DNA of 64,000 bases from Dermatobacter hominis (GTDB lineage: Bacteria; Actinomycetota; Acidimicrobiia; Acidimicrobiales; Microtrichaceae). Positions within the stretch are counted from its first letter, which is position 1. Each line of letters begins with the position of its first letter. Location of the stretch: NCBI RefSeq assembly GCF_020715685.1, contig NZ_CP085840.1, positions 2,170,001 through 2,234,000 on the forward strand, in the 5' to 3' direction. Position numbers and translations under genes: made by a program. The notes under the pieces were generated by a model, which was not told the origin of the DNA, did no database searches, and was given only the letters and a program-made list of their open reading frames with translations. Below, one piece after another: positions 13,582-47,363 of the stretch.

Positions 13582-14334
13582 ATGACCCAGGCCATGGAAC
13601 GTCGAGAGGGCGCGGACGCCCCCGACGTCAACGGGACGCACAGGTCCAACAGGAACCTGTTGATCGACTTCTGGCGGTCGGCCGTCGGCAAGAAGTGGGT
13701 CATGGCCCTCACGGGCGTCGGCCTGATGGGCTTCGTGTTCGCCCACATGTTCGGCAACCTGAAGATGTTCCTCGGCCGGACCGAGTTCGACCACTACGCC
13801 GAGGGCCTGCGCTCGCTGTTCTCGCCGATCCTCCCCCACACGTGGGCGCTGTGGGCGCTGCGCATCGGGCTGATCGTGATGTTCGCCCTGCACATCATCG
13901 CGGCGGCCCAGCTCACGGCCATGAACCGGCGGTCCCGCCCGATCCGGTACCAGTCGCCGCGCGACTACATCGCCGCCAACTTCGCCTCCCGGACGATGCG
14001 CTGGACCGGCGTGATCGTCCTGCTCTACCTGCTCTTCCACCTGGCGGACCTCACCTGGGGCTGGGTCAACCCCGACTTCGTCCGCGGCGCCGCGTACGAC
14101 AACCTCGTCGCCAGCCTCGAGCAGTGGCCGGTGGCGATCATCTACCTGATCGGCAACATCGCCCTCGGCATCCACCTGTTCCACGGCGCCTGGTCGATGT
14201 TCCAGTCCATGGGCATCAACAGCCCCCGCTACAACGGCGTCCGCAAGGCGTTCGCCGCCGGCTTCGTCGTCGTCACCATCGGCATGAACTGCGCCTTCGT
14301 CGTGGCCATCCAGGCCGGCGTCGTCTCGAACTGA
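13582..14334 (+). CDS. sdhC: Succinate dehydrogenase cytochrome b subunit
   Basis: A 250-residue integral membrane protein with five predicted helices (for example [20 protein letters not shown] and [18 protein letters not shown]). His residues in [24 protein letters not shown] and IHLFHGAWS are positioned to bind two b hemes. This is the single-subunit type B anchor (Bacillus/Wolinella and mycobacterial Sdh1 type); no sdhD follows, which fits. It passes electrons from SdhB to the quinone pool. A ribosome binding site (CAGGAGAG) precedes the ATG. It is the first gene of sdhCAB. Confidence 0.93.
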
Positions 14335-14353
14335 CGCGGAGAGAGGAACCACC

Positions 14354-16282
<1,929 letters not shown>

Positions 16283-18513: not shown

Positions 18514-19461
18514 TCAGGTGCGCTCGGGGAGCTTCGTGCCGGTCGGGGGCTGGTTCCACTCGATCCAGCCGCCGCCCTCGCGGCCGTCCGACGTGGTCAC
18601 CCGTGCCATCGCACGCGGGAAGCGGGCGGCCCGCCCGTCGGGGTGGACGAGCAGCACCGGCGAGAACGCGACCGGCTCGAACTCCAGGTCGAGGTCGACG
18701 ATCTTCGTCCCCGTCCGGGTGGGCAGGCGCTCCCGGCCCTCGGTGACGTCGAGCACGACCGTGTCGCCTTCGGCGAACTCCGTCGAGTCGGGGTCCAGGC
18801 GGTAGGCCACGCCCCAGTCGGCGTCGGGGAAGAAGCCCCCGGCGGAGTGCCAGCGGGTGCCGTCGGAGAGCCGGCCCGCCGTCCACGACCACTGGTTCGT
18901 CCACCAGTCGCGCGCCGCCCCCCACGAGTGGTCGCGCTGGCCCCAGCCGTCGACCTCGATGCGCTCGTCACCCACCTGCACGAACCCCTCGACGCGGCAC
19001 GGGATCTCGTAGCGGGGCGTGACCGGCGGCCACAGGTAGGCGGCGCGATCGGTGTGGAAGTCGAGCTCGAAGCCGAAGGCGACGCGGCTGCCCCGCGGCT
19101 CGGGGTGGTACACCTCGGCCGGGTCGTCGAGCTGCAGGCCGAACGCCTCGAGGTTGATCGACATGTGCTCGTTCGGCGTCTCGACGACGTGGTCGGCCCA
19201 GAGGCCTTCAGAGCGGACCTCGAGCGACGACGCGGACCTCGGCATCGGGATGTCGTGCTCGATGACGGTCACCAGCGGGCGGTCCGGACCGACGAGGCAC
19301 GCCCAGTACCAGACCCGGTCGAGGTTCGGGTAGAAGCCGATCCGCACGTAGCCGCCCAGCGACAGGTCCTCGGCGAACCAGTCCAGGTAGTACGACTCGT
19401 TCCACAGCTCCGTGTCGTCGGGGGTGTGCCGGGCCTCGTCCTGGGGGTTCGGTGCGCTCAT
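18514..19461 (-). CDS. CrtC/AttH-like beta-rich protein, function unknown
   Basis: 315 residues, no signal peptide or membrane helix. Motifs include DWFAEDLSLGGYVRIGFYPN, EVYHPEPRGSRVAFGFELDF and VDGWGQRDHSWGAARDWW. The conserved G-x-R-D-H-S-W-G pattern and double beta-barrel character resemble hydroxyneurosporene hydratase (CrtC)/AttH-like and DUF7064-type proteins acting on lipophilic substrates. The ATG at 19461 overlaps the GT2 stop (ATGA), so it is the last gene of the exosortase operon. A lipid- or isoprenoid-modifying role linked to the surface glycan is possible but not shown. Confidence 0.75.
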   Translation of the reverse strand: MSAPNPQDEARHTPDDTELWNESYYLDWFAEDLSLGGYVRIGFYPNLDRVWYWACLVGPDRPLVTVIEHDIPMPRSASSLEVRSEGLWADHVVETPNEHMSINLEAFGLQLDDPAEVYHPEPRGSRVAFGFELDFHTDRAAYLWPPVTPRYEIPCRVEGFVQVGDERIEVDGWGQRDHSWGAARDWWTNQWSWTAGRLSDGTRWHSAGGFFPDADWGVAYRLDPDSTEFAEGDTVVLDVTEGRERLPTRTGTKIVDLDLEFEPVAFSPVLLVHPDGRAARFPRAMARVTTSDGREGGGWIEWNQPPTGTKLPERT

Positions 19462-20990
19462 GCCCGGAGTCTGTCAGCCGGCTCCGGGCCGTGCGGAGCG
19501 GACGCGGCAGCCCGCTCCGCGCCGCCGTCGGGACCGCTCGACCGCGGCTCGGCGGGCCCCTTGGCCAGGCCGTGCGTCGTCTTCTCCCAGTGCGACGGGG
19601 CGGTCACGAGCTGCACCGCGGCCCGCACGCCGGCGATCGACATGAGGACCCAGTACAGCGGCGAGACGAGCACCGCGACCAGGAGGTCGGGTCGGCGCGC
19701 CTCGCGCACCGTCAGCACCGACAGGTAGACGACCGACAGGTTCCCGAGCACCCAGGCCAGCAGGGCCACGTGGTAGGTGACCCCCGGGAACATCGACTGC
19801 ACGAACGCCGCGCGCGTCGTCACCCAGACGACGGCGAGACCCCAGAACCAGAGGTTCATGACGGCGAGGATCGGGGTGCACCCGACGAAGAGCACGAGGT
19901 GCACGGTCCGACGCCAGCCGAGGTCGTCCAGCAGCGCGCGGGGGCGGCGGAACTGGACCAGGAAGGTCTGGAGGTAGCCCTTGTACCAACGGCTGCGCTG
20001 CTTCACCCAGTTGATGACGTCGGTGTTGGGCTCCTCCATCGTCGTGGAGTCGACGAGCCCGATCGTCCAGCCCCGCCGCTGGAGCCGCACGCCGAGATCG
20101 CAGTCCTCGGTGACGTTGTGGGCGTCCCACCCGCCGACCTCGCGCAGCGCGGTCGCCCGGAAGTGGTTGGAGGTGCCGCCGAGCGGGATGCAGGCGTCGC
20201 GGAGGATGAGCCCGGGCAGGTAGAGGTGGAACCACGTCAGGTACTCGGCGGTGAACCAGCGGGTCAGCAGGTTCCGGCGACCGCCGAAGAACGACAGGCG
20301 GGCCTGGAAGCAGGCGCGGCTCGCCGGCGACCGGCGGAAGGCCACGGCCACCCGCCGCAGCTGCAGCGGCTCGGGGTGGTCCTCGGCGTCGTAGATCGTG
20401 ACGAGGTCGCCCCGGGCGAACTGGAGGCCGTAGTCGAGCGCACGCGGCTTGGTGCGCGGCTCGCCGGGCGGGACGACCAGCACGTCGACGGGCAGGTCGG
20501 TCTCGATCGCCATCGCCTCGGCGATGGTGGGCTCGTCGCCGTTCTCGAGGAGCAGCTTCACGTCGAGGCGGTCGCGGGGGTACTCGAGGCGCTCGAGCGA
20601 GCGGATCAGGTCGCCGAGCACCTCGGGCTCGCCGTAGGCCGGCACCAGCACCGTGTAGACGGGCAGGTCCCGGTCGCGCAGGGCCCGCGCCGCCGCATCG
20701 GTGACCCGCACCGACGGGTCGTCCTCGAGCGACGCCCGCACGAGCGAGATCCGGTGGACGACCGTCGCCAGGTACAGGCCGGTCGAGCAGACCATCAGCG
20801 CCACGCCGACCGTCGACGGCCAGCGCCACAGGCCGGCGAGCACGAGCGCGGCGAGGACGCCGAAGACCCACCGCTGGGCCCGGGTGGTGCCGGTCGCGGC
20901 CGTGGCGCCCGGGTTGGCGAGCTCGACGTCGCGCAGCGCCTGCGCCATGCGGGCGTCCGCGATCGCCGGCGGCACCTCGTGGATGCGCAT
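19458..20990 (-). CDS. Family 2 glycosyltransferase, cellulose synthase-like
   Basis: A 510-residue membrane glycosyltransferase. It has two N-terminal helices, a cytoplasmic GT-A domain and three or four C-terminal helices. Catalytic features are VYTVLVPAYGEPEVLGDLI, TIYDAEDHPEP (metal-binding D-x-D-like), NVTEDCDLGVRLQRRGW (the TED base) and KQRSRWYKGYLQT (Q-x-x-R-W). This arrangement is that of processive synthases exporting a beta-linked polysaccharide. The ATG overlaps the exosortase stop (TGATG). A glycosyltransferase next to an exosortase fits the known link between exosortases and exopolysaccharide production. Confidence 0.92.
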   Translation of the reverse strand: MRIHEVPPAIADARMAQALRDVELANPGATAATGTTRAQRWVFGVLAALVLAGLWRWPSTVGVALMVCSTGLYLATVVHRISLVRASLEDDPSVRVTDAAARALRDRDLPVYTVLVPAYGEPEVLGDLIRSLERLEYPRDRLDVKLLLENGDEPTIAEAMAIETDLPVDVLVVPPGEPRTKPRALDYGLQFARGDLVTIYDAEDHPEPLQLRRVAVAFRRSPASRACFQARLSFFGGRRNLLTRWFTAEYLTWFHLYLPGLILRDACIPLGGTSNHFRATALREVGGWDAHNVTEDCDLGVRLQRRGWTIGLVDSTTMEEPNTDVINWVKQRSRWYKGYLQTFLVQFRRPRALLDDLGWRRTVHLVLFVGCTPILAVMNLWFWGLAVVWVTTRAAFVQSMFPGVTYHVALLAWVLGNLSVVYLSVLTVREARRPDLLVAVLVSPLYWVLMSIAGVRAAVQLVTAPSHWEKTTHGLAKGPAEPRSSGPDGGAERAAASAPHGPEPADRLRA

Positions 20991-22750
20991 CAGCCGCCCT
21001 CCCCGATCCCGTTGGAGCCGACCTGCTCGGCGACGTGCTCGGAGCGCTCGACGGACGAGGCGACGACGCCGCGGGCGAACGTCACGAGGAAGCTGCGGGA
21101 CCGGGCCTGCTGGGCGGAGGGCGAGCCGTCGGGCGACGCGCCCCGCACGAGCTCGTCGGCCCGGAGCCCGACGCTACCGGCGTCCTCCGCCGTCACCTCG
21201 GGCGCCTCGATGTCGGCGCCGTCGACGTCGTTGAGCAGCAGGACCACCCGCTCGTACGAGGTGCTGTGGCCGTCGCGCACCGCCCACACCCAGTAGACGG
21301 TCGTCCACCGGAGGCCGGTGTCGGGCTGCTCCCAGTTGAGGACGGTGCCGACGACCCCGTGGCCGAGGTCGACGCGGCGGACCCCGCCCATGTCGAAGCC
21401 GTGGAACCGGTAGCACGCCTCGAGTCCGAAGTCGCTGAACGACTGCAGGTTCGAGGTGGACACGACATCGGCCAGCACCGGGACGTCGCTGCGGAGGCCC
21501 TCCGGCCCGTCCCCCACGTACGAGTAGCGGATCCACGACGAGTCCTCGCCGAAGAACCGACGGCCGGCGTCGATCGTGTCGACCGGCTCGGCGTAGAAGC
21601 CGTCGGGCTGCGTGCCGACCTGGGCGAACGTCCCGAGCCGCGGGGCGCCGACCGACGAGGCGATCGGGTCGTACCTCGTCAGCCCGTGGTCGAAGACGCC
21701 GCCCACCAGGGCCACGACGACGAGGACCGGCAGCACCGCGCCGAGCCGGGGCACTGCGGAGCGGACCGCCAGCGCTCGGGACGGGCCCTCGCGGCGGAAC
21801 GGCAGGAGCCCGAACCGGGCCGACACCAGGACCATGGCGAAGACCCCGACGTTGAAGGTCAGCAGCCCGACGTAGGGGTGGAGGATGTCGATCGCCGCGC
21901 GCTCGCCGAACACCCGGCCGACCCCGAGGATCGACATGATCCGCACGACGTTGAGCAGCACCACGGCGGCGGCGCCGACAGCCAGCCATGCCACCTTGCG
22001 GATCCACGTGCTGCGCATCGTGATCGCGATCGCCCCGGCGACGAGCAGGAACCCGACCAGACCGTTGGCACCCGAGCAGGCCGACGCGATCTGGACGTGG
22101 AAGCCCCGCGGTCCGTGCGGCACGAGGAACGAGATGCCGTCGCCGCCGGCCCGCTCGGCGACGGGGACGATCCTCACGGCGACGCCGACCGCCGACGCCG
22201 CCAGGTCGCCCATGGGCTCGAGGGCGGCGATGGCCACGCGCTGCGCCGGGACCGGCCAGGCCAGGAAGAGGAACAGGATCGCCGCCCGGACCCGCCACAG
22301 CATCCGCACGCCGAACAGGAGGGCGACGACGCCGGCGACGAAGAGCGGCATGGTCAGCAGGTCGACCCGGTAGAGCCAGTACATCGTCGACATCTGCGCG
22401 GGCAGCAGGACGAGCGCGACCAGCGCGGCCACGATCAGGGGGACGGCCACGATGCGGTCGACCATCCGGTCGTGGATGTCGGGCTCGCCGACCTCGGGCC
22501 GGGCGAGCACGCAGCCGAGCACCAGCGCGATCACCGGCACGAGCCCGAGGAAGGCGAGCGGCGTGTCGACGGTGATGCCGCGCAGCAGGCTCCACAGCGA
22601 CGTCTGGTAGCAGACGACCACGAGGGCGACGGCGAGCGCGGTCCGCAGCACGACGGACCGCCGCAGCGCGGCGTCGGACGGGCGCGCCGCGCCGGCCACC
22701 TGCGCCACACCGGGACCGGGGGGCGGGACGGGCAGCGCGAGCGTGCTCAA
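20990..22750 (-). CDS. Exosortase/archaeosortase family transpeptidase-like protein
   Basis: About 586 residues from a TTG at 22750 that overlaps the upstream stop (TTGA); an ATG at 22813 would add 21 residues within the previous gene. Some eight or more membrane helices carry the family triad: Cys225 (IASACSGANGLVGF), Arg270 (LLNVVRIMSILGVG) and His291 (ILHPYVGLLTFN). The last ~230 residues are extracytoplasmic and hydrophilic after one more helix, resembling an EpsI-like domain fused to the exosortase. Family members cleave C-terminal PEP-CTERM-like signals. Candidate substrates in this window carry VPEAP near the C-terminus (26606 and 46986). Confidence 0.88.
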   Translation of the reverse strand: MSTLALPVPPPGPGVAQVAGAARPSDAALRRSVVLRTALAVALVVVCYQTSLWSLLRGITVDTPLAFLGLVPVIALVLGCVLARPEVGEPDIHDRMVDRIVAVPLIVAALVALVLLPAQMSTMYWLYRVDLLTMPLFVAGVVALLFGVRMLWRVRAAILFLFLAWPVPAQRVAIAALEPMGDLAASAVGVAVRIVPVAERAGGDGISFLVPHGPRGFHVQIASACSGANGLVGFLLVAGAIAITMRSTWIRKVAWLAVGAAAVVLLNVVRIMSILGVGRVFGERAAIDILHPYVGLLTFNVGVFAMVLVSARFGLLPFRREGPSRALAVRSAVPRLGAVLPVLVVVALVGGVFDHGLTRYDPIASSVGAPRLGTFAQVGTQPDGFYAEPVDTIDAGRRFFGEDSSWIRYSYVGDGPEGLRSDVPVLADVVSTSNLQSFSDFGLEACYRFHGFDMGGVRRVDLGHGVVGTVLNWEQPDTGLRWTTVYWVWAVRDGHSTSYERVVLLLNDVDGADIEAPEVTAEDAGSVGLRADELVRGASPDGSPSAQQARSRSFLVTFARGVVASSVERSEHVAEQVGSNGIGEGG

Positions 22751-23337
22751 CGGACGACCGCCTCGGCCCGCCGCCGGCGGGCCAGGATCCCGAGCGCCAA
22801 CGCCGCGAAGCACACCGCCGAGATGGGCAGCAGCGCGCCCACGACCACCTCGTCGACCGCCGCGGGCGGCTCGGCGATCGTGGTCGTCGTCGTCGGCACC
22901 GTGGTCGTGGCGCCGGGCACCGTGGTCGTCGGCCCGGCCACCGTCGTCGTGGTCTCCGCCGGCGGGACGGTCGTCTCACCCGTGGCGTCCACGCCGAGCA
23001 CGGCCTGCGCCTCTTCGGAGTACGAGGGCGAGTAGCCGTCGGTCCAGCCGGTGCCGCTGACGTCGGAGGTGTCGCCCGACGAGCCGGAGCCGCCGGTCGA
23101 ACCGTCGTCGACCACCGCGGCGGCGTCCTCGGACGCCCCCGCGACGGCGGCGTCGCCGCCGGCCGCCGGGGCGGCGGTGGTCGTGGTGGTGGTCGACGAC
23201 CGGGCCGAGGCGCGCGCCGCGGGCGAGTCGTCGCCGACGCGCCCCGCGACCAGCACGAGCGCGATCGCCAGGACGGGTGCGGCCAGCACCAGCAGCATCT
23301 TGCGGTCCGCCGGGAGGATCCTGCGCAGGCCGGTCAT
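22747..23337 (-). CDS. Thr-rich protein with N- and C-terminal membrane segments
   Basis: 196 residues. A signal-anchor helix (KMLLVLAAPVLAIALVLVAG) is followed by a long low-complexity region of Thr, Ala, Gly and Ser (SSTTTTTTAAPAAGG, ETTTTVAGPTTTVPGATTT). A C-terminal helix ALLPISAVCFAALALGILA precedes RRRRAEAVVR. The C-terminal arrangement (LLP, helix, Arg cluster) resembles the PEAP-signal proteins elsewhere in the window but with AEPPAAVDE instead of PEAP. The ATG at 23337 overlaps the upstream gene (ATGA). It may be a glycosylated stalk or an exosortase-associated partner. Confidence 0.75.
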   Translation of the reverse strand: MTGLRRILPADRKMLLVLAAPVLAIALVLVAGRVGDDSPAARASARSSTTTTTTAAPAAGGDAAVAGASEDAAAVVDDGSTGGSGSSGDTSDVSGTGWTDGYSPSYSEEAQAVLGVDATGETTVPPAETTTTVAGPTTTVPGATTTVPTTTTTIAEPPAAVDEVVVGALLPISAVCFAALALGILARRRRAEAVVR

Positions 23338-23729
23338 CGTCGGAACCCCTCCTCGGGAGTCGGTCGGGTGCGGGGAGCGGGGTCGGTGACCCGGTAGAGG
23401 CGGTACGAGGGGACGCGGGGGTCGTCGGAGCGCCAGGTGCGCACCTCGGTGAAGCGCTCGGCGTCGGGGCCGTCGTCCGATGCGAGGTCCGGGTGCAGCG
23501 ACGTGACCGCGTCACCGGCGGCGGCGGGCAGGCGGACCAGGACGTAGCGGATGCCGAAGGTGCCGGGATCGCTGACCACCGCCTCGAAGTCCCGGTCCGA
23601 CGGGATCACGTACAGCTCGGGTCGCTCCGACGCGGCGACGACGCCGAACGTCGACGACACGTCCGTCAGCACCGCGCCGGGTGCGGCGTCGGGAAGGGCC
23701 TCGACCGCGCGCGCCCACGTCGTCGGCAC
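23334..23729 (-). pseudogene. C-terminal fragment of the membrane glycosyltransferase-like protein (after frameshift)
   Basis: This frame (131 residues from a GTG at 23729) has no ribosome binding site and begins inside the 3' part of the gene at 23512-25206. It encodes a soluble alpha/beta segment (AVLTDVSSTFGVVAASERPELYVIP, TFGIRYVLVRLP, RVPSYRLYRVTDP). That kind of extracytoplasmic tail is usual after the helices of GT39/GT83-like membrane proteins, whereas the other frame becomes Arg-rich nonsense past this point. A single extra base near 23730-23735 explains the split. Its stop overlaps the next gene start (ATGA), as if the intact gene once ended here. Confidence 0.65.
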
Positions 23730-25206
23730 GGCGCTGCGCGGTGGGGTCGCCGTCGTGGCCCGACAGCGTCGCCCGGACCGCGTCGAGGGTGGCCTCGTCG
23801 TCGGTCGCGCCGTAGCTGCCCGTCACGACCGTCTGCCACGACAGGACGATCCCCGGCACCAGGGCCAGCACGACCAGCGCCGCCAGGGTCCGGCGGCGCC
23901 GGGTCCACGACCACTCGCCGCAGATCACCAGCGCGACGAGCGACGACAGCACGACCGCTCCGATGACGTAGCGGAACCACGGGAACGTCGTCCCGGACGC
24001 GGACAGGACGACCTGCGCGGCGACCGGCGCGCCGAGCACCGCGACGGCGGCGGTCGTGCGCGCCGCGGCCCGGTCGCCGATCCACACCGCCAGCGCTACG
24101 AGCGGCAGCAGCAGCGGGGCGACGACCAGGACCTGGCGGACCGTGAACCAGGTCCGCCCGGCCGGGGACAGGTCGCCCACGATCCCGCCGAGCGAGTCGC
24201 CGGCCGCGGCGACGATCGCCGAGTTGCCGTAGTCGGAGCTGAACTGCGCGAACGGCTCGCCGATGACGGCCCAGGACGCCAGCGCCCAGAAGCCGAACGC
24301 GGTGGCAGCGGGCAGGACGACCACCGCCACGTCGAGCACCGCCCGACCCCGCCGCTCCTCCCACAGCTCCAGCGGGTCCCGGTCCGTGCTCGCCGGCGCC
24401 CCGCCGACGGCGTGGCCGGCGCTGCGCCGCAGGGAGGCCACGACCACCACGACCGCGACGGCGATCACGGCCGCCACCGTCTCGTACCGGGTCAGGTAGG
24501 CGAGCGCCAGGGCGAGGCCGCACAGCGAGAGCGGCACCAACCCGTCGTCGTCGAGCCAGCGCGCCAGCTGGCGTGCCGCGACGACGAGGAAGAACAGCCA
24601 GCACGCTTCGCTCATCCCGTTCGCGCCGTACAGCAGCACGAGCGGGCTGGCGGCGGTGGCGACGGCGACGGCCCACCGCGACGGGCGCGTGGCCCGGCAG
24701 TCCTGTCCCCATCCGACGATCTGGGCGAGCGTCGCCCCCATGAACGCCGCGGACACGACGACCGCGGCCATGCCCGATCCGGCGAAGCCGGGCCACCAGT
24801 CCCGCAACCAGACGACCGGGACCTCGAACAGCGTCGGGAACGGGCCCCAGACGAACCCGATCGCCTCGGGGTGCGGGTCGCGCCCGAAGAGCACCGACTG
24901 GGCCGCGACCACCCGGGACGTGGCGTCACCGGGCACGGCCCGGGACGCCAGCGCCACGACGGCCCCGGCGGCGAGGAACACGAGCGTCCCGACGCCGCCG
25001 GCCACCCACGGCTCCCGGCGCGAGGTCGCGCCCCGGTGGCGGCGGCGGGCCCGCCGTGCGAGCTCCTCGGAGCGGACGCGGACCAGCTCGTCGCCCTCGA
25101 GGACCGCGGGGTGGGTCCAGTCCCCCGCGCCCGTCCGCTCGTGCTCCGCCGTCCGCTCCGCCACGTCCACCTGGACCCGCTCCGCCATCTCCCACTGCAC
25201 CTTCAT
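23512..25206 (-). CDS. Multi-pass membrane glycosyltransferase-like protein, apparently frameshifted
   Basis: From the ATG at 25206 the meaningful protein runs ~490 residues to about 23735, after which this frame turns into low-complexity Arg-rich sequence. It has a ~80-residue charged cytoplasmic N-terminus and then some ten helices. Blocks such as FGRDPHPEAIGFVWGPFP, LLYGANGMSEACWLFFLV and LALAYLTRYETVAAV are typical of polyprenyl-phosphate-sugar-dependent membrane glycosyltransferases. The rest of the protein continues in frame at 23334-23729. It heads the exosortase operon. The break may be a real mutation or a base-call error. Confidence 0.72.
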   Translation of the reverse strand: MKVQWEMAERVQVDVAERTAEHERTGAGDWTHPAVLEGDELVRVRSEELARRARRRHRGATSRREPWVAGGVGTLVFLAAGAVVALASRAVPGDATSRVVAAQSVLFGRDPHPEAIGFVWGPFPTLFEVPVVWLRDWWPGFAGSGMAAVVVSAAFMGATLAQIVGWGQDCRATRPSRWAVAVATAASPLVLLYGANGMSEACWLFFLVVAARQLARWLDDDGLVPLSLCGLALALAYLTRYETVAAVIAVAVVVVVASLRRSAGHAVGGAPASTDRDPLELWEERRGRAVLDVAVVVLPAATAFGFWALASWAVIGEPFAQFSSDYGNSAIVAAAGDSLGGIVGDLSPAGRTWFTVRQVLVVAPLLLPLVALAVWIGDRAAARTTAAVAVLGAPVAAQVVLSASGTTFPWFRYVIGAVVLSSLVALVICGEWSWTRRRRTLAALVVLALVPGIVLSWQTVVTGSYGATDDEATLDAVRATLSGHDGDPTAQRRADDVGARGRGPSRRRTRRGADGRVVDVRRRRRVGATRAVRDPVGPGLRGGGQRSRHLRHPLRPGPPARRRR

Positions 25207-25309: not shown

Positions 25310-26464
25310 TCAGGCCACACCCGCCTGGAACTTGCAGATGCCGTTCGTGCGATCAGCCACCGGCAGTCGCACGAAGCCCGTCGCCGTGTAGATGGCGGAC
25401 AGCTCCTGGTAGTTGGTCAGGCCGGAGAAGAGGTTGTTCGAGTGCGAGCCGGTGCCCTTGCAGAGGAACTCGGTCAGCTCGCGCACCGCACCGCCCTTGC
25501 CGCCGGAGGCGCCGAGGACGTTCTCCGTCGCGGCGTCGGCGGTGGCGTCGACCTTCTTGGTGACGTGCCAGATGAACCGGGTGAACGGGTACGAGCCGTT
25601 CGACACCGAGGCGTTCGAGGCGTCGACGCCGTTGACCTGCCAGACCTTCGCGTCCTGGCGCTTGTAGGCGAACGCCTTGAACTCGGCGTACGACATCCAC
25701 CAGATGGCGTTGTTGGCCTGGAAGCCGGGGTCGGTGTTGAGCTGCTTCACGTCGTTCTCGAACGGGAAGATCCCGTTGTCGAGCTTCTTGACGCAGGCGC
25801 CGGCGTTCACGTCTGCGAGGCCCAGGAAGCCCTGGAACGTCCGCTTCGTGCCAGAGGCGGCGTTCATGCCCCACGGCTGGATGGTCTGGCCGTTCGGGGT
25901 GCCCGTGGTGAGCGTGCCCCAGTCGGTGACCGAGCAGTTCCAGATGCTGGCGAGCTGCGCCGTGGTCAGGTTGCCCGTGGTCCGGTTGCCGAACGTCACG
26001 ACGACGATGCCGTCCTTGCCGTAGGCCCAGAAGTTGACGTCGCTCTGGCCGCCACCGGCGCCCGCCGGCGCGCTGGACGAGCGGGCGTAGTCGACCTTGC
26101 CGTCCTGGAGCTCCTTGACGCCGGCACCCGAGCCGGTCGGGTACTTGGAGACCGCGTAGTCGTGGTCCCAGTTGCCGCGGGCGTCGGTCTGGCCCTGGGC
26201 CGAGCCGGTGAGGCACTGGCCGACGGTCGCCGAACCCGTCGAGTTGTTCGTGTCGCAGCCGTTGGCCTGGTTGTAGATCCTCTCGAAGCCCTGCATGAAG
26301 GCATAGGTCGTGTCCGAACCCGACCCGACGATGAGGTCGTTGACGTCGTCCCAGCCGGAGCCGGTCGGATCCGGCTCGGGCGGGTTGGGCACGGCGCCGG
26401 CCACGGCCGCCGTCGTGAGGAACGCAGCAGCGATCACGCCTGCCACGAGGACTTTCAGCTTCAT
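25310..26464 (-). CDS. PstS-like phosphate-type substrate-binding protein
   Basis: 384 residues from the ATG at 26464, chosen because AAGGTGG lies 8 nt upstream; an upstream in-frame ATG would include that site. A Sec signal (KLKVLVAGVIAAAFLTTAAVAGA) leads into DLIVGSGSDTTYAFMQGFER, YARSSSAPAGAG and WGMNAASGTKRTFQGFLG. These resemble the phosphate-contacting loops of periplasmic PstS-like proteins. Four or more Cys suggest disulfides. It has no lipobox and no C-terminal anchor, so it would be freely secreted. It lies downstream of the PEAP-signal protein on the same strand and near the pst operon. Confidence 0.78.
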   Translation of the reverse strand: MKLKVLVAGVIAAAFLTTAAVAGAVPNPPEPDPTGSGWDDVNDLIVGSGSDTTYAFMQGFERIYNQANGCDTNNSTGSATVGQCLTGSAQGQTDARGNWDHDYAVSKYPTGSGAGVKELQDGKVDYARSSSAPAGAGGGQSDVNFWAYGKDGIVVVTFGNRTTGNLTTAQLASIWNCSVTDWGTLTTGTPNGQTIQPWGMNAASGTKRTFQGFLGLADVNAGACVKKLDNGIFPFENDVKQLNTDPGFQANNAIWWMSYAEFKAFAYKRQDAKVWQVNGVDASNASVSNGSYPFTRFIWHVTKKVDATADAATENVLGASGGKGGAVRELTEFLCKGTGSHSNNLFSGLTNYQELSAIYTATGFVRLPVADRTNGICKFQAGVA

Positions 26465-26559
26465 CTGGTGCACCACCTTGGTTGGTGAGTTCGGGTTCAT
26501 CTGGCCCGTGTCGGTACAGGGGGGTTCTGGCTGTCCTGGCTCGCCGATGGAGATTCGCG

Positions 26560-26605: not shown

Positions 26606-27190
26606 TCAGGAGATGGCAGCTCGCCGCCGGAGGAAGAAGAACCCTCCGACCGCCGCCAGGGCGCCCACGACCGGGAGGAGGACCCCCACCGGCGCCTCGG
26701 GCACCACGGCGCCGCCCACTTCGAACGTGAAGGAGGCCTCCGCGGCGTCGTCCTTGTTGCCGATGACGTTGTTCGTCACCCGCACGTAGCACGTGGTGTT
26801 CTTCTTGACGCCGCTCGGCGGCGTGTCGTTCGCCCCGTAGCAGCCCCAGCCGTTGGACTCCGAGCTCTCCTGGCCCCGGAACACCTTCACGGACGCGGAG
26901 CCGGACCCGTCGAGGGTGCCGTTCTTCGTCAACGTGGTCAGGTCGTCGCAGTCGAGCGCGACGTTGAAGGTCGGATCCGAGATGGTCTTCCCGCACACGG
27001 TGATGAAGATCAGCGTGTCGACCTTCTGCCCGGTCCAGTTGACGGTCACGTCGGCCGTCGTCTGGTCGGAGGTCATCGGGATGACGTTCTGGCTCAACGA
27101 CACCGTGCCGAGCGCACCCGCCAGTGGCGCGGCGAACGTGGCCAGCGCGACCGCCAGGCCGACCACGGGGACGATGTTGCGCAGGCGCAT
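26606..27190 (-). CDS. Secreted four-cysteine domain protein with PEAP C-terminal sorting signal
   Basis: 194 residues from the ATG at 27190 (AGGGAGA upstream). After a Sec signal (VVGLAVALATFAAPLAGALG) comes a domain with LIFITVCGKTISDPTF, NVALDCDDL, GWGCYGAND and GVKKNTTCYVRVTN: four Cys spaced as in the gene at 35292. I do not recognise this domain. The C-terminus reads VVPEAPVGVLLPVVGALAA, a helix, then FFFLRRRAAIS, which has the PEP-CTERM layout (P-E-x-P motif, helix, Arg cluster). It is a likely exosortase substrate. PHO-box-like repeats lie ~100 nt upstream. Confidence 0.8.
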   Translation of the reverse strand: MRLRNIVPVVGLAVALATFAAPLAGALGTVSLSQNVIPMTSDQTTADVTVNWTGQKVDTLIFITVCGKTISDPTFNVALDCDDLTTLTKNGTLDGSGSASVKVFRGQESSESNGWGCYGANDTPPSGVKKNTTCYVRVTNNVIGNKDDAAEASFTFEVGGAVVPEAPVGVLLPVVGALAAVGGFFFLRRRAAIS

Positions 27191-27433: not shown

Positions 27434-28465
27434 TCAGTAGGTCATGGGCAGGAACGAATCGAGGTGGAAGAGGACCAGACCGACGCCGAGCGCGACGGCC
27501 GGTCCGGCGACGACGACGGTCGTCACGAGCGAGGTGCGGCGCCGAAGCTCGACGGCACCGAACACGCCGAGCGCCGCCACGGCGGCGCCGCCGACGAGCA
27601 GCACGAGGCCGCCCGCACCGCGCCCGTCGAAGCCGCCCTGGTCGCCCTTGACGAGGCGCACGCGCTGGTCGTCGGGGACTGCGGGCTGCGTCCCGTCCTT
27701 GGCCGCCTGGACGACGACGCGCCGGCTGTCGAAGGGGCCGCCGGCGCTGGTCACGAGCGTCATCCGGGACGGACCGGTCGGGTCGAGGACGTCGGTGTCG
27801 TCGCCGTCGACCTCCTTCACCGACGTGACCTTGTAGACGTAGACGCGGCCGTCCCGCATGCGGGCGTAGACCAGGGATCCGCTCGTCAGGTCCTTGAGCC
27901 GGCCGAACGAGTACCCCCACAGCGTGGAGTGGCCCAGCACGACCGTGTTGCCCTGGCCGGGCGTCGCCGAGCCCTCGCGCCAGCCCGGTCCGCCGCGGAG
28001 CAGTTCGGGGGTCGCACCGGTCACGACGACCTCGTTGAACCCGATCGCCGGGATCTGCAGCGCGAACGCCGGATCCCCGGAGGTGAGGCGGGGGTCGGCC
28101 TGCGTGTACTCGTCGGCGCGGTGCGTCTGGCGGACCCGGGCGAAGGCCGGGAGCAGGAACACGACGAGCAGGGCGAACGCCACGACCCCGCCCACGACGG
28201 CGATGACGGCCCGGCGGCCGAGCGAGGACCGCGGGTCGGGACCGGTCGGCGGCGGAGGATCGGGCTCGGGGAGGTCGACGGCGGGCTGCGGCGCCGAGGC
28301 GCCGTGCTCGAACTGCGACCCCTCAGGGGCCTGCTGCGGTGACGCCTCCGGGGGGACGGGCGGCCGGGGCGCCTCGGGGACGACGGGCGGCTGCGATGCG
28401 CCGTCCCGGAGGTCGACGACGTCGCTGCGGTGGTGGAGGTCGCTCCGTGCGTGGACGTCGGTCAC
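27434..28465 (-). CDS. Sortase-like protein with Ser in place of the catalytic Cys
   Basis: 343 residues from the GTG at 28465, which overlaps the upstream stop (GTGA). The N-terminal ~85 residues are cytoplasmic and Pro-rich, followed by a membrane helix, an extracellular sortase fold and two C-terminal helices. Sortase blocks include LQIPAIGFNEVVVTGATPEL, NTVVLGHSTLWGYSFGRL (His179) and DVLDPTGPSRMTLVTSAGG. In sortases the last block ends T-L-V/I-T-C with an Arg some eight residues on; here the residue is Ser240 (codon AGC), with Arg248/Arg249 present. The protein may be inactive for transpeptidation or a scaffold. It is the last gene of the pst operon. Confidence 0.82.
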   Translation of the reverse strand: MTDVHARSDLHHRSDVVDLRDGASQPPVVPEAPRPPVPPEASPQQAPEGSQFEHGASAPQPAVDLPEPDPPPPTGPDPRSSLGRRAVIAVVGGVVAFALLVVFLLPAFARVRQTHRADEYTQADPRLTSGDPAFALQIPAIGFNEVVVTGATPELLRGGPGWREGSATPGQGNTVVLGHSTLWGYSFGRLKDLTSGSLVYARMRDGRVYVYKVTSVKEVDGDDTDVLDPTGPSRMTLVTSAGGPFDSRRVVVQAAKDGTQPAVPDDQRVRLVKGDQGGFDGRGAGGLVLLVGGAAVAALGVFGAVELRRRTSLVTTVVVAGPAVALGVGLVLFHLDSFLPMTY

Positions 28466-30237
28466 GAGGCCCACGCCCGCTTCGTGGCGAGGTTGCGCAG
28501 GATGATGAACGTGAGCGCACCGAGGCCGAGCGTCACCACGCGGTCGAGCGGCGACAGCGAGAGCGTGGGCAGCTCCATCGGCATCCTCCGGCTGATCGCC
28601 GCCGCCTCCGCCGCCTCATCGCCCACGGCGCCACCGCCGCCCGAGGCGCCGCCACTGCCGTCGACGCCGCCCGACTCGGTGATCGTCTCGAGCGGCGTGA
28701 AGCCGGAGTCGTCGACGGTCCCGTCGTCGTAGCTGCCCGGATCGCCGTATCCGAGGTCCGAATAGCCGCCGTCCGGCGCCAGCTCCCCGGACCCGTCGCC
28801 GTCGCCCGCCGGCGGGTCGCACAGCTTCATCGACGACACGCCGGTGATGGCGCCGGCGGGTGCGTAGGGTGCGCCGTCCTTCGACGTGACGACCTCGCCA
28901 CCCGCCGACCCGCAGTTGCTCTCGACGATCTGGTTGGCGGCCGTCAGCGCCTCGACGACCATCTTGTCGGTGATCTGCCCGTCGCCGATCTGCGCGGCCT
29001 GCGCCCGTCCCGTCGTCACCTGCGTGCGGATGATGGTCGCCACTGCGTTGGCCTGGGCGGCGGTCAGCCCCGAGGCCGGTGCGTAGAGGCGGTTGACCCA
29101 GGTCAGGGGGTACGCCCCGGGCACCGGTGTGGTCGCACCCGTGAGCGGTGCGCCGTCGCCGGCCGCGACCGCGGCGGTGATGGCCGCCGGAGTGGCGCTC
29201 ACCCACTCGCCGGCGCCGTTGCGCAGCTGGGCGGTGTAGAGGGGGATCTGCTCCGCCTTCGGTCGTGCGGCGTTGAGGAAGACCGACTCGGCCACCTTGC
29301 CGGGGGGCACGAAGGCGAACGCACCCGAGAAGTTCAGGATCGAGTCGCTGCCGCTCAGGCCCTCGCGAATCAACGACAGCACGTCGTCCATCGACCGCCG
29401 CGAGGTCTGGCTGTCGACCGGCCAGACCTCCGACGGCTTGGTGTCCGCCGTCTGGCCCGGGGTCTGGGCCATCCACGCCCGCCAGTCCTGGGGCTGGGTC
29501 GCCTCGACGTAGCGCTCCAGGTAGTAGTTCGAGGCGTCCGCGCCGGAGCGCACGATCGCTCGGGGGATGTCGTTCGGCGCGATCAGGGTGCGTCCGGCCA
29601 GGGCGCCGGGATCCTGGTTCGCCTTGAACTCGGTCGAGGCGAAGACGCTGCGGCCGGAGAAGATCATCTGCCCCACAGCCGACGGGGTCAGGCGGAACGG
29701 GCCGGTGAACGGCGAGATGTCGGCGAGCGCGCACGGGCTCTCTCCGTCCTCGTTCAGCTCCTCGCACCGCAGGGGCCAGGCCCGGAGCCATGCGTCCGCG
29801 GTCGGGAAGCGGTCGCCCGCGATCGGAGCGGGGATGTAGCCGAACGCCGCCAGCGCCGTGGCCTGCACCGGTGCGGAGATGACGCCCCGACCGGACTTCT
29901 GGAGGTCCGAGAGCTCCTGCGGGCCGAAGCCGACGCCGGACACGATCATGTCGGTGTCGCCCGCCACGAACGACGCCCGGGCGTCGGCGGTGTCGGTCAG
30001 GATCGTCTGCAGCGACAGGTCCACATCGGCGCCCTCGAGCCGGGCGATCGCCGAGCTGATCATCGAGTTGGCCTCGCCGCTGAGCTGGACGTCGAGGTCG
30101 ACCGCGGTCGGGGCGTCGGCGTCCTGGGCCCGTGCCGACTGCGGCAGCGCGACCCACGCCGCCGCGAGGGCCAGCATGACCACTCGGGCGAAGACGACGC
30201 GGCGCGGCGTGGGCCGGCGGGAGCGGGCGCGACTCAC
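28462..30237 (-). CDS. Membrane-anchored PstS-like binding protein, second of the operon
   Basis: 591 residues from the GTG at 30237, overlapping the upstream stop (GTGA). A signal (RVVMLALAAAWVALPQSARA) is followed by a diverged substrate-binding fold: VDLDVQLSGEANSMISSAIA, DMIVSGVGFGPQELSDLQ, TLIAPNDIPRAIVRSGADAS and AFAFVPPGKVAESVFLNAA. The canonical phosphate-binding Ser/Thr-Gly loops are not clear, so the ligand is uncertain. A Gly/Asp-rich linker leads to a C-terminal helix (VVTLGLGALTFIILRNLA) with a TKRAWAS tail. It is therefore tethered to the membrane, unlike usual lipoprotein PstS. Confidence 0.75.
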   Translation of the reverse strand: MSRARSRRPTPRRVVFARVVMLALAAAWVALPQSARAQDADAPTAVDLDVQLSGEANSMISSAIARLEGADVDLSLQTILTDTADARASFVAGDTDMIVSGVGFGPQELSDLQKSGRGVISAPVQATALAAFGYIPAPIAGDRFPTADAWLRAWPLRCEELNEDGESPCALADISPFTGPFRLTPSAVGQMIFSGRSVFASTEFKANQDPGALAGRTLIAPNDIPRAIVRSGADASNYYLERYVEATQPQDWRAWMAQTPGQTADTKPSEVWPVDSQTSRRSMDDVLSLIREGLSGSDSILNFSGAFAFVPPGKVAESVFLNAARPKAEQIPLYTAQLRNGAGEWVSATPAAITAAVAAGDGAPLTGATTPVPGAYPLTWVNRLYAPASGLTAAQANAVATIIRTQVTTGRAQAAQIGDGQITDKMVVEALTAANQIVESNCGSAGGEVVTSKDGAPYAPAGAITGVSSMKLCDPPAGDGDGSGELAPDGGYSDLGYGDPGSYDDGTVDDSGFTPLETITESGGVDGSGGASGGGGAVGDEAAEAAAISRRMPMELPTLSLSPLDRVVTLGLGALTFIILRNLATKRAWAS

Positions 30238-31768
30238 GAGCGGGCCAACCCCGACTTCGTCCCCCGGGCGATCACGGTCCCCAGCGCGACGAGCGCGCCG
30301 CCGAGGAGGAACGTGAACACGACGTCGCTGTTCTCCGGGCCGGCGGTGCCGCCCTTGGCCGCGGCGTTGCTGCCCGACGCCCCGGCGGCGGCCTGCTCGG
30401 CCGCGGCCGCATCGGCGGCTGCGGCCGCGGCGGCGGCATCGGTCGCGCCGGCTGCGGCCGACGGGTCGGCGGCGCCCGAGGCCGCCGGGTCGACGGCGCC
30501 CCCTCCGGCGCCGGCCCCGCCCGCGGCGCCGGCCCCGCCCGCACCTGCGTTCGCCCCGGGCGCCGCGGCGGGAGCCGCCGGACCGTTCTGGACCCGGACC
30601 TGCGCCGGCGCGTTGCACGTGGCGGTCGCCGGCCGCGCCGGGGCGCCGGGGATCTTGGCGATGGCGTCGAGCGCGATGTTCACGAGCGGTTCGCTGAGCC
30701 GCGAGTAGAAGAGCGGCTCGGACCGGCGCTGGCCCTGGCACGCCGCGTAGTTCAGGAACGTGGCCAGGACCTTGCCCTTCTCGGCGTTGAACCCGGCGGT
30801 CTGGGCGATCGCATACGAGTACGTCGACGGGAAGTACGCCTTCGGGTCGGTGCCGCCGTAGCTCAGCTCGAAGGTGCCGTTGCCCCGCGGCTGCGCGTAG
30901 GCCAGCGCGATCGTCGAGTTCGGGGGGTTGGGCGGCGTGAACGCCCCGGCCGGGTTCTGCACCGAGGCCACCGGCAGCTTGGTGATCGTCTTGAAGCCGG
31001 TCTCGATGTAGGTGATCGAGTCCGCGCCGGTCGATCCGTTGGCGACCGACTTGGCGATGCCGTCGGAGCTGTAGGCGGCGCTCACGCTGCCGAAGCCGCG
31101 GGGCCAGACCGAGATCGGCTTGCCCTGGGCCAGGTACTGGTCCTGGCCGAACGGGCCGCCGCCGATGGTCTGCTGGAACTTCCGCCAGACGTCGGGCGCG
31201 CGGGCGATGCAGAACTCGCTGAGCACGTAGCTGGTGCCGGCGCGGTCGTCGCGGACCACCGGTCGGATCGGCCGGTCCGGCAGCGGCGCCCCCGGATTGG
31301 CGGCCGCGATGCCGGGGTCGTTCCACTTGATCCCCGGCTCGGTGAAGATCCGGCACGCCTCGCGCTGTGTCAGCTTGAGGTCCGAGATCCGCTGCCCGTT
31401 CGTGCCCACCACGTTGAACATGAACGCCACCGCGCCTGCGGCGACCGGGACGTACACGAAGTCCTTGCGGCCGGAGCCGTTCAGCGTCCCCTGCTCGTCG
31501 GGCAGGAACTGGATGTCGCTCTGGCCGAAGTCGAGCGCGCCCGACATGTAGCGCTCACGACCGAAGCCCGACCCGGTGGCGCTGTAGTTGATGCTGAGCT
31601 TGTACGGCGGGTTGGCCACGTCGGCCTTCCACTGGTCCATCAGCAGGCCGACGAACGACGAGCCGCCGCCGGTCACGATCGGCCCCTCGGCCGAGGCGCC
31701 CGGGACGACGAGGACCGAGCTCGCGGCCAGCACGCCGACGGCGACGAGCGCTCGCAGGAACGTGCGCA

Positions 31769-31769
<1 letters not shown>
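30234..31769 (-). CDS. Membrane-anchored PstS-like phosphate-binding protein
   Basis: 511 residues from the ATG at 31769, overlapping the pstB stop (TGATG). A Sec signal (LRALVAVGVLAASSVLVVPG) leads into PstS-like blocks: GPIVTGGGSSFVGLLMDQW, INYSATGSGFGRERYMSG, LDFGQSDIQFL, DRAGTSYVLSEFCIARA and SVWPRGFGSVSAAYSS. These correspond to the phosphate-contacting loops. Residues ~400-470 are an Ala/Gly-rich linker, and a C-terminal helix (VVFTFLLGGALVALGTVIA) ends in RGTKSGLARS. No lipobox is seen, so anchoring appears to be by the C-terminal helix, allowing the domain to sit away from the membrane. Confidence 0.82.
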
Positions 31770-32830
<1,061 letters not shown>

Positions 32831-32846
32831 GGGTGACCTCCGATCG

Positions 32847-34070
32847 TCATCGCCCGGCTCCGCGCTTGCGAGCGCCGCGCGCGCCGATCCAACGGGCGGC
32901 GACGAACAGGATCAGGACCAGGATCATGAGCACGAGGGCCCCGGTCCAGGCGCGGCCGACCTGCCGGTCGTTGGGCTGGCGCAGCAGCGACCAGACGAAC
33001 AGGGGGAGGTCCGCCTGGGGGGAGCTGAACGGGTTGTAGTTGGTGGCGGTGCTGCCGAACGCGGTGAGCAGCACCGGGGCCGTCTCGCCGATCGCGCGGG
33101 CGACGCCCAGGATCGACGCGGTGATCAGGCCCGAGCGGGCCGTGGGGAGCACCACCCGCATGACGCTGCGCCACTGCGGCGCGCCCAGGGCGAGCGCCGA
33201 CTCGCGGAGGCCGTCGTCGACGGTGCGGAGGATCTCCTCGCTCGTGCGGGTGACGATCGGGATCATCATCACGGCGAGCGCGACGCCGGCCGCCGCACCC
33301 GAGAAGCCGTGGCCCTCGTTCACCCAGATCGTGAACACGATCAGACCGGCGACGATCGACGGGAGGCCGCTCATCGCGTCGACCACGAAGCGCACCGGAA
33401 CGGCGAGCCGGCCCTTGACCTCGTGGAGGTAGACGGCGGTGAGGATCGCGATCGGCACGGCGAGCACGGTGGCGATCGCGATCTGCTCGAGCGTGCCGAC
33501 GACGGCGTGGAAGGCGCCGCCGCCCGCGTCGAGCGGTCCGACCTCGGACAGGTCGTCGGTGAAGAACGCGAGGTCGAGCCCCGGCAGCCCCTTGATGATC
33601 ACGAACGTGCACATCCACACGAGCACGCCCACGGCGATCGCACCGCAGACCCAGATGAGCGTCGTCATCAGGCGGTCCTTGGCCACGACCTTGCTGGTCC
33701 GGTCCCGGGCCAGGAGGTACACCGCGACGAGGAACCAGAGCAGCGCCCAGCACCCGAAGGTGAGCGGGTGCGTCCAGTCCATGGCCGCGCACAGGGCCCA
33801 GGCGAATGCGAGTCCCGAGCCGGCGGCCAGGAGGTAGTCCATCCGGTCGTTGCGCGACAGCGTGCGCGGGCGCACCGGTTGCTCCGACAGCGGCGGCCAG
33901 GGCGTCGACGGACCTCGGTCGTCGACCCGCACGCCCTCGGAGGCCCCGCCGTCGGAGGACGGGCCGCGGCCGGGAGCGACGGCACCCGCCCCGTCGGGCG
34001 CGCCCGCCGGTGGCCGCTCGCCCACGGCGGTGGAGCGGCGCTCGAGCTCGCGCTCGTCGACGACGGTCAT
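32847..34070 (-). CDS. pstA: Phosphate ABC transporter permease
   Basis: 407 residues from the ATG at 34070 overlapping the pstC stop (TGATG). About 60 cytoplasmic residues precede two extra helices ([35 protein letters not shown]). The PstA core follows with [40 protein letters not shown] and [20 protein letters not shown], which is the EAA coupling loop contacting PstB, then [20 protein letters not shown]. It is longer than usual PstA (~290 aa) because of the N-terminal extension. Confidence 0.92.
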
Positions 34071-35071
34071 CAGACGGCCATCCGGGCGCGGGCGACGATC
34101 GTGCGGGCGACCAGGTTCACGATCAGGGTGAGGATGAACAGGGCCAGGCCGGCGGCGATGAGGCCGTTGATCTCGAGGCCGGCGGCCTCGCCGAACTTCG
34201 TGGCGATCAGGGCCGAGATCGACCCGCTGCCCTGCTCGAGGATGTGCAGGTTCGGCTTGTCGATGATCGTGATGACGAGGACCACCGCGATGGTCTCGCC
34301 GAGCGCCCGGCCGAACCCGAGCAGGACCGAGCCGACGATGCCGCTGCGCCCGAACGGCAGGACGACCGCGCGGATCATCCCCCACCGGCTGCCCCCCAGC
34401 GCCAGGGCGCCCTCGCACTGGACTCTCGGCACCTGGGCCATCACGTCACGGGAGACCGAGGTGATGATCGGCACGACCATGAACGCCACGACGGAACCGG
34501 CGATGAACGTGGACTGCGAGACCGAGGCGTCGGCCGACGTGAGGCGCAGCAGCGGGATGGCGTTGAGGTGCGATGCCAGGAACTCCGACACGCCCATCAG
34601 CGGGCCCTGCAGCGCGAAGAAGCCCCACATGCCGAAGATCAGGCTCGGGATGGCGGCGAGCAGGTCGACCGCGCTGGTGAGGACGCCGCGGATGCGGCCG
34701 GGGGCGTACTCGTTGATGAAGAGCGCGAGCCCGAGCGCCAGCGGCACGCCGATGACGAGCGCCACCGCGGCGATGAGGATCGTGTTGACCAGGATCCCCC
34801 CGACGCCGAAGTTGCCCTCGGCCGGTCGCCAGTCGGAGGTGGTGAGGAAGTCCTTGACGCCCGACTCGCTCAGGGCCGGCAGCGCCTTGACCGTGAGGAA
34901 CACGGCGGCGGTCGCCATGATCGCCAGGCAGGTGGCGGCGGCGATGCCGGAGATGCCCCGGAAGACCCGGTCCCCGAAGGTCCACGTGCGGGGCAGCGAG
35001 CGGGGGGCGTCGTCGCCCGCAGGAGCGGGCGGCGTGGGCGACGCGGCGGTCGGGGGGGTCGTCACGGCCAC
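34070..35071 (-). CDS. pstC: Phosphate ABC transporter permease
   Basis: About 333 residues from the GTG at 35071; another GTG at 35065 is equally possible, and a TTG at 35122 would overlap the PHO-box-like repeats. Six core helices with SLIFGMWGFFALQGPLMGV, SRDVMAQVPRVQCEGALALG and GSRWGMIRAVVLPFGRSGIV (EAA loop) and GFGRALGETIAVVLV are typical PstC blocks. It is the first gene of pstC-pstA-pstB, PstS-like, PstS-like, sortase-like, all joined by overlaps or a 16-nt gap. Confidence 0.92.
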   Translation of the reverse strand: MAVTTPPTAASPTPPAPAGDDAPRSLPRTWTFGDRVFRGISGIAAATCLAIMATAAVFLTVKALPALSESGVKDFLTTSDWRPAEGNFGVGGILVNTILIAAVALVIGVPLALGLALFINEYAPGRIRGVLTSAVDLLAAIPSLIFGMWGFFALQGPLMGVSEFLASHLNAIPLLRLTSADASVSQSTFIAGSVVAFMVVPIITSVSRDVMAQVPRVQCEGALALGGSRWGMIRAVVLPFGRSGIVGSVLLGFGRALGETIAVVLVITIIDKPNLHILEQGSGSISALIATKFGEAAGLEINGLIAAGLALFILTLIVNLVARTIVARARMAV

Positions 35072-46985: not shown

Positions 46986-47363
46986 TCAGGCGGCGGGAGC
47001 GGACCGTCGGCGACGGGTCCAGACCAGTGCCCCGCCGCCGACGGCCAGGGCTCCCGCCGGCAACAGGATCGCGGCCGGCGCCTCCGGGACGACGGGCGGC
47101 GGCCCGGTGTCCGGCAGCCTGCAGTTGGCCGGATCCGACCAGAGCCAGGCGGCGAGCCACTCCACCTGGGCGTTCCACTCGCCACCGGCGGCGATGAAGG
47201 CGTCCTTCTGGGCCTGACGCTCCTCGGGTCGACACGCCGGTGGCGGTGGGGTGCACGACGAGGCGAGCCCGACCAGCACCAGCAGGCCGGCCAGGGCCAC
47301 CGGTGCGATCGCCCGTCGGGCGCCTCGTCGATCTCCCCACAGCACGTCTGCATCAGACCGCAC
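46986..47363 (-). CDS. Small lipoprotein-like protein with PEAP C-terminal sorting signal
   Basis: Up to 125 residues from a GTG at 47363; since that start overlaps the upstream repeats, a GTG at 47345 may be the true start. The signal RAIAPVALAGLLVLVGLASS precedes CTPPPPAC (possible lipobox). The mature part has QKDAFIAAGGEWNAQVEWLA and a third Cys. The C-terminus reads PPPVVPEAPAAILLPAGALA, a helix (AVGGGALVW) and TRRRRSAPAA. It shares VVPEAP and LLP with the protein at 26606 and is a likely exosortase substrate. Confidence 0.75.
   Translation of the reverse strand: MRSDADVLWGDRRGARRAIAPVALAGLLVLVGLASSCTPPPPACRPEERQAQKDAFIAAGGEWNAQVEWLAAWLWSDPANCRLPDTGPPPVVPEAPAAILLPAGALAVGGGALVWTRRRRSAPAA

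Follow-up and report, generated by a model that had tools for sequence, protein, structure and literature searches.

Which proteins are handled by an exosortase that is encoded in an actinobacterial genome, and does the enzyme belong to one of the named exosortase systems? These questions were raised by a gene cluster of Dermatobacter hominis (contig NZ_CP085840.1) lying in the 64,000-nucleotide stretch that was analysed here (the window). In our study, the exosortase and a V-P-E-x-P tail at the C-terminus of a few secreted proteins probably form a previously undescribed sorting system, because the tail was found only in exosortase-containing genomes among those searched. We give a probability of about 0.78 to a dedicated exosortase sorting system, a new subfamily with its own V-P-E-x-P signal, in which cleavage and the acceptor are inferred steps. 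What was computed directly is the family assignment of the exosortase, the tail common to the proteins, its co-occurrence with the enzyme and the order of the genes. G, C, L and f denote the genomes, contigs, loci and families of the survey.

Organization of the exosortase operon

The operon was found on the minus strand (18514–25206) and contained five reading frames, which overlapped by 4, 4, 1 and 4 nucleotides as read from the sequence (Table 1). The genes had been described in the first-pass annotation as joined by overlaps of 1–4 nucleotides, and the ORFs and their overlaps were recovered at the same minus-strand coordinates. The stop codon of the second GT39 frame overlapped the ATG of the Thr-rich gene by 4 nucleotides (ATGA, 23337–23334), and the stop codon of the Thr-rich gene overlapped the TTG of the exosortase, again by 4 (TTGA, 22750–22747). 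The exosortase and GT2 genes overlapped by a single nucleotide (TGATG at 20990), followed by a 4-nucleotide overlap between the GT2 and CrtC-like genes (ATGA, 19461–19458). The alternative start of the exosortase was a GTG at 22708. The genes encoding the Thr-rich protein, the exosortase, the GT2 and the DUF7064/CrtC-like protein were four overlapping genes behind a GT39-type membrane gene. The Thr-rich tail protein and the cellulose-synthase-like GT2 were both borne out as operon members.

Table 1. Features of the exosortase operon and its surroundings (positions in the window)
Feature	Position	Strand	Evidence
CrtC/AttH-like protein (DUF7065 + DUF7064), accessory	18514..19461	-	PF23212 E 3e-20, PF23213 E 2e-16, above cut-offs
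GT2 family membrane glycosyltransferase (cellulose-synthase/PgaC-like)	19458..20990	-	PF13641 E 7e-27
Exosortase with C-terminal extracytoplasmic domain (roughly residues 350–586)	20990..22750	-	PF09721 E 2e-22
Presumed exosortase substrate: secreted or membrane protein rich in Thr, Ser and Pro, ending in the tripartite tail	22747..23337	-	
C-terminal tail of the Thr-rich protein, degenerate: VDEVVVGALLPISA...RRRR	22762..22869	-	tail profile E 5e-14, the tail being itself one row of the profile
GT39-like gene, second-frame C-terminal part	23334..23729	-	relatives' GT39 sequences in tblastn, frame -3
GT39/PMT-like polytopic glycosyltransferase, first frame	23512..25206	-	PF13231 E 6e-4, below cut-off
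PstS-like PBP-superfamily secreted protein	25310..26500	-	PF12849 E 5e-15; position conserved in L022, L023, L065, L072, L075, L077
Secreted beta-sandwich (neocarzinostatin/chromoprotein-like) protein, tail VVPEAPVGVLLPVVG...RRR; presumed exosortase substrate	26606..27190	-	NF040680 E 7e-4, below cut-off
V-P-E-A-P C-terminal tail of the beta-sandwich protein	26615..26713	-	tail profile E 5e-14
Class-E-like sortase	27434..28474	-	PF04203 E 1e-24; class_E_sortase best NCBIfam match, below cut-off
Conserved secreted/membrane protein P28	28462..30183	-	homologues in L022, L023, L158, L159, L160; no Pfam or NCBIfam match
PstS-like substrate-binding protein P30, C-terminal membrane helix	30234..31769	-	PF12849 E 1e-22, TIGR00975 E 3e-36
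Phosphate-type ABC transporter genes for PstB, PstA and PstC, at the head of the locus	31769..35071	-	TIGR00972 E 6e-100, TIGR00974 E 1e-75, TIGR02138 E 1e-74
Third tail-bearing protein, end CRLPDTGPPPVVPEAPAAILLP...RRRR, with LPxTG-like and VPEAP motifs in tandem	46986..47300	-	tail 46995–47102, profile E 3e-14

The GT39-like gene showed 42–51% identity to intact relatives of 661–690 amino acids and was clearly orthologous to them. In this assembly it was frameshifted, and the residues matching the relatives passed from the frame at 23512–25206 into that at 23334–23729. The frame changed somewhere in the interval from about 23757 to 23715, next to a GCGCGCGC GC repeat that contained no long homopolymer, and the gene was intact in the relatives. 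The shift may be either an error of sequencing or a true inactivation of the gene. The membrane glycosyltransferase of the first-pass annotation was thus confirmed as a GT39-like gene but not as a single ORF.

The operon was the continuation of a longer same-strand block, containing Pst genes, a sortase, and beta-sandwich and PstS-like genes. The earlier reading of the operon was right for the exosortase, GT2, GT39-like and Thr-rich genes but incomplete, the Pst/class-E-like sortase/PBP locus having been omitted. The gene set of this locus was found around the exosortase, with its order kept or rearranged, in other genera and families (L022, L023/L065, L158 of G402, and L024/L078 of G328) and in more distant exosortase neighbourhoods (L076/L171). 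The unit of Thr-rich protein, exosortase and GT2 was constant in the window's family, and a GT2 gene came after the exosortase in nearly all relatives with a contig long enough to show it. Only the window and L071 had a CrtC-like gene beside the GT2, so this gene is not a core member. It had earlier been counted as part of the unfamiliar combination; the neighbourhood survey places it outside the conserved unit, so the novelty lies in the V-P-E-x-P tail together with the Pst/class-E-like sortase/PBP locus and not in the pairing of an exosortase with a CrtC-like protein.

In the window, the PstSCAB-like locus (28462–35071) encoded PstS-like proteins tethered to the membrane as well as the class-E-like sortase. 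The PstS-like proteins of L076/L171 ended in sortase-like LSFTG/LAFTG motifs. The neocarzinostatin-like beta-sandwich family of secreted proteins was expanded, with further members in the window (35292–36143), L020 (2254–2808), L021 (7802–8371), L022 (5954–6316), L160 (8201–8782) and L065 (5972–6733). Several members of this family were tail-less, and two ended in LRFTG- or LQFAG-like motifs.

The exosortase and its C-terminal domain

The exosortase matched PF09721 with 80 bits (cut-off 25.7) and the NCBIfam model exo_archaeo (TIGR04178) with 50.7 bits (cut-off 23). The Cys225/Arg270/His291 triad, numbered from the TTG at 22750 (C211/R256/H277 from the GTG), was invariant in six homologues. 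The exosortase with this triad and a C-terminal extension, as first proposed, was upheld by both the superfamily models and the residues. The check proposed with it, a run of the NCBIfam Xrt profiles, assigned the enzyme to no named Xrt subfamily; every Xrt/Art subfamily model remained below its cut-off, the best being XrtA with 61.9 bits against a cut-off of 208. In the exosortase-core scores, the members reached 317–534 bits and the exosortase of G562 reached 90, followed by at most 23 in the other exosortases tested. A tree of the cores with other actinobacterial exosortases, which were short or very divergent, gave no resolution, and the group was delimited by the score gap alone and not by a tree. 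The enzyme apparently represents an undescribed subfamily with its own sorting signal.

An exopolysaccharide/exosortase locus of ordinary kind, like those known for XrtA or EpsH, is a very improbable reading of the operon. XrtA was the best subfamily match and a GT2 of the polysaccharide-synthase type adjoins the exosortase, but the XrtA score was far below the cut-off, the other Xrt models came nowhere near theirs, the PEP-CTERM models were below cut-off on the tails, and no separate EpsI gene was recognised in the locus.

The exosortase carried about 230 residues after the core. This domain gave non-significant matches to DUF3485 (E 0.015) and EpsI_type_V (E 0.017) in one member each, and otherwise nothing sensible was found. 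The hhalign comparison with one EpsI sequence was non-significant, although the Cys motif was aligned, and a comparison with EpsI through plasmids found nothing. The AlphaFold2 model of the domain was usable (pLDDT 75.8); its PDB neighbours were DcrB (Z 8.8), Mog1 (Z 8.5) and PsbP-like proteins, all in the range of a common arrangement, and no EpsI structure was present among the fold matches. For the whole exosortase, a prediction from six homologues was of poor quality (pLDDT 55) and was left unused. The C-terminal domain is likely a divergent EpsI-like domain.

The V-P-E-x-P tail

The tail was tripartite, with conserved V-P-E-x-P-x3-L-L-P followed by a membrane helix and an Arg cluster. Three proteins of the window bore it: the Thr-rich protein encoded beside the exosortase, the beta-sandwich protein, whose gene lies 4 kb upstream, and a third one at a distance of 24 kb. 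In the alignment of ten tails, E, L, P and R were invariant and the spacing was fixed. The tail of the Thr-rich protein of the window read VDEVV, with the spacing kept and both prolines lost; the Thr-rich tails of relatives read VPESP/VSESP...LLPIS. None of the Pfam and NCBIfam sorting-domain models, PEP-CTERM included, reached its cut-off on the A3 tail, the member tabulated in full, and over all ten tails the best E-values were weak (1e-3 to 0.3). A plain DNA pattern for VPExPx3LLP had a background of about 0.2 per genome; being too noisy, it was replaced by a tail profile, and the tail-bearing proteins were found through the profile search only.

The tail ended unrelated proteins (Thr-rich, beta-sandwich, a 227-aa secreted protein and a PD40/WD40-like propeller) and was missing from beta-sandwich paralogues. 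Judged from these sequences, the tail is a detachable module. Tail proteins were also encoded on other contigs (G380 C9, G374 C166). In the relatives, the gene of the Thr-rich tail protein immediately preceded the exosortase gene and in most cases overlapped it, and the Thr/Pro-rich linker of the Thr-rich proteins contained 13–23% Thr.

The tail might instead be a mere C-terminal membrane anchor inherited with the locus, its motif being no processing signal. The low number of copies per genome, the inheritance of the locus as a block and the degenerate motif of the Thr-rich protein in the window would suit such an anchor; the same motif and spacing at the ends of unrelated proteins, some of them on other contigs, and the nearby anchored P28 and P30 without the motif argue against it, and we consider it improbable.

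Distribution of the tail and the exosortase

Full-length relatives of the exosortase were found in 7 of the 395 sampled Acidimicrobiia genomes, the copy of G374 being cut by the contig end. Counting exosortases of any kind, 11 of the 395 were positive, as were 8 of 208 genomes from a phylum-wide sample. The scan of named genomes gave 17 loci, mostly from environmental MAGs, many of them lake-named, and one from the strain Actinobacteria bacterium IMCC26207. The exosortase carriers are a small group of mostly freshwater actinobacteria.

At E<=1e-4 the tail profile gave 15 matches in 7 of the 395 Acidimicrobiia genomes, which were exactly the exosortase carriers, and none in the other 388. The ten tails used as profile rows all came from exosortase-positive genomes, so the 7/7 count is partly circular and the negative side (0/388) is its stronger half. 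A cleaner test is provided by genomes without rows in the profile. All four exosortase-positive genomes of this kind matched (G402, 2.6e-9; G480, 4.5e-7; G481, 1.5e-13; G482, 1.3e-11), and ten other genomes, one of which contained PEP-CTERM proteins and an XrtA-type exosortase, gave no match below 0.003. The most informative of these was G402, first met through a weak beta-sandwich match, in a protein ending in VVPEAPFAALLP; an exosortase was sought afterwards and turned up on that contig at a distance of about 8 kb.

Within each of two genera, exosortase and tail were both present or both absent (G328 versus G138; G374 versus G229, G308 and G390). When a profile was built from the window's family alone and run on 6,230 ORFs, it picked out the tails of the other families with E-values of 3e-9 to 3e-5. 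The pairing was found in at least four families (f1, f5, f10, f68), the genome counts not being independent events because the genomes are related. Only 1–3 tails were present per genome.

In G562, which belongs to another class, a distant exosortase (33% identical) was overlapped by the gene of a small secreted protein ending in PAVPDVPAAVLGG...RRTRR (L169, 8345–9019 and 9016–10686), with a GT2 next door; it is possibly an outlying member. The VPDVP tail of this protein gave no match to the tail profile, so the likeness is one by eye only, and no homologue of the window's sortase was seen in the 12 kb of L169 examined. L168 (G658) contained an XrtA-type exosortase and several PEP-CTERM proteins; the genome is filed under Actinomycetota with 89% completeness and 5% contamination, and the contig may be of proteobacterial origin and have been misbinned.

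Which enzyme reads the tail

The main alternative is that the class-E-like sortase of the locus reads the V-P-E-x-P tail, leaving the exosortase with a different, unseen substrate or with a role in glycan assembly alone. In the window's family this sortase occurs only with the locus and also co-occurs with the tail, so that co-occurrence alone cannot name the enzyme that reads the tail. An L-x-x-T-G-type motif (L(P/A)xTG-like) was also found just ahead of (V/I)PExP in two proteins, the third tail-bearing protein of the window (46986–47300) and one of L171 (5887–7524), which counts for the sortase. Except in these two, no LAXTG/LPXTG-type motif preceded the helix and the tails carried VPExP; VPEAP is without the Thr-Gly typical of known sortase signals. 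Sortases were present in 13 of 13 genomes tested, tail-less ones included. In L024, two neighbouring paralogues (14055–14738 and 14913–15884), 82% identical over 180 amino acids, ended in VPEIPLSILLP and LPRTG, respectively, the two motifs thus being alternatives. The gene of the Thr-rich tail protein was coupled to the exosortase and not to the sortase. The ubiquity of sortases, the L024 pair and this coupling favour the exosortase as the reader of the tail. VPEAP was initially read as a sortase signal; weakened by the 13 genomes and by the L024 pair, this reading is kept as an alternative that we regard as unlikely.

The tandem motifs leave room for a dual system. In such a locus of a Gram-positive envelope, the exosortase and the class-E-like sortase would share the PstSCAB-like cluster and split the surface proteins between two signals, some of them in tandem; this is a tentative possibility. 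If it is true, the same protein family goes either to a membrane/glycolipid acceptor or to the wall.

Proposed mechanism and significance

For the dedicated exosortase system, we infer cleavage, an acceptor, glycosylation and a role like that of EpsI. The substrates would be secreted by an N-terminal signal peptide and stay held in the membrane through the tail. The polytopic exosortase, with Cys225 as the putative nucleophile and with Arg270 and His291, would cleave at or near V-P-E-x-P and would hand the protein over to an acceptor in the membrane or envelope. These cleavage and anchoring steps are proposed by analogy with archaeosortase A, the substrates of which are cleaved and lipid-anchored (PMC7157517). 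The GT39-like enzyme probably O-glycosylates the Thr/Pro-rich linker of the adjacent substrate, the GT2 probably makes the glycan or glycolipid involved, and the C-terminal domain of the exosortase probably replaces the separate EpsI partner of the Gram-negative systems. The class-E-like sortase of the same PstSCAB-like surface locus would act on a different signal. As a guess from the PstSCAB setting, the surface structure may be tied to phosphate or ligand capture. The VDEVV tail of the Thr-rich protein, the GT39 frameshift, the few tails per genome and the non-significant EpsI-like match count against the proposed system.

To our knowledge, the chemistry of exosortases, that is, the partner to which the substrate is attached, is still unsolved. 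With this locus, Actinomycetota gain a subfamily of exosortases together with a sorting signal. The few substrates (one to three per genome, against dozens of PEP-CTERM proteins in a Gram-negative comparison host), the fused C-terminal domain, the availability of at least one sequenced, named strain (IMCC26207) and the paralogue pair differing mainly in the tail would make exosortase chemistry easier to test. No paper joining an exosortase with Acidimicrobiia was found among the open-access full texts searched; the subscription literature may differ.

Comparison with known systems

Exosortases are known to go with PEP-CTERM signals, and sortases with LPXTG (PMC11980579). The XrtA/EpsH and PEP-CTERM system of Gram-negative bacteria shares with the present one a polytopic Cys/Arg/His enzyme, a tripartite C-terminal signal with Pro-Glu and nearby glycosyltransferases of the polysaccharide type. 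However, the enzyme of the window falls far below the XrtA cut-off, its tail is unmatched by the PEP-CTERM models, and 1–3 substrates stand against dozens for XrtA; the system is also actinobacterial, bears a C-terminal domain on the enzyme in place of a recognised EpsI gene and contains a sortase in the locus. An exosortase core within a longer protein is shared with XrtD/VPLPA, XrtW, XrtT and XrtE/VPEID (models of 472–516 positions), whereas the exosortase of the window scored 12–32 bits against their cut-offs of 150–425. XrtG with glyc2_xrt_Gpos1 likewise pairs an exosortase with a GT2 in Gram-positive bacteria, but the GT2 of the window reached 30 bits with the model of the XrtG-associated enzyme (cut-off 364), and XrtG was not among the exosortase matches. 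Archaeosortase A with PGF-CTERM of Haloferax provides the working model, in which surface proteins are cleaved by a Cys protease and anchored to a membrane lipid (PMC7157517), whereas the signal, the domain of life and the partners differ. The class E sortase with LAXTG-LPXTG of actinobacteria shares a tripartite C-terminal signal, and a class-E-like sortase is present in the locus of the window; however, the enzyme family is unrelated, VPExP is without Thr-Gly, and the L024 pair separates the two signals.
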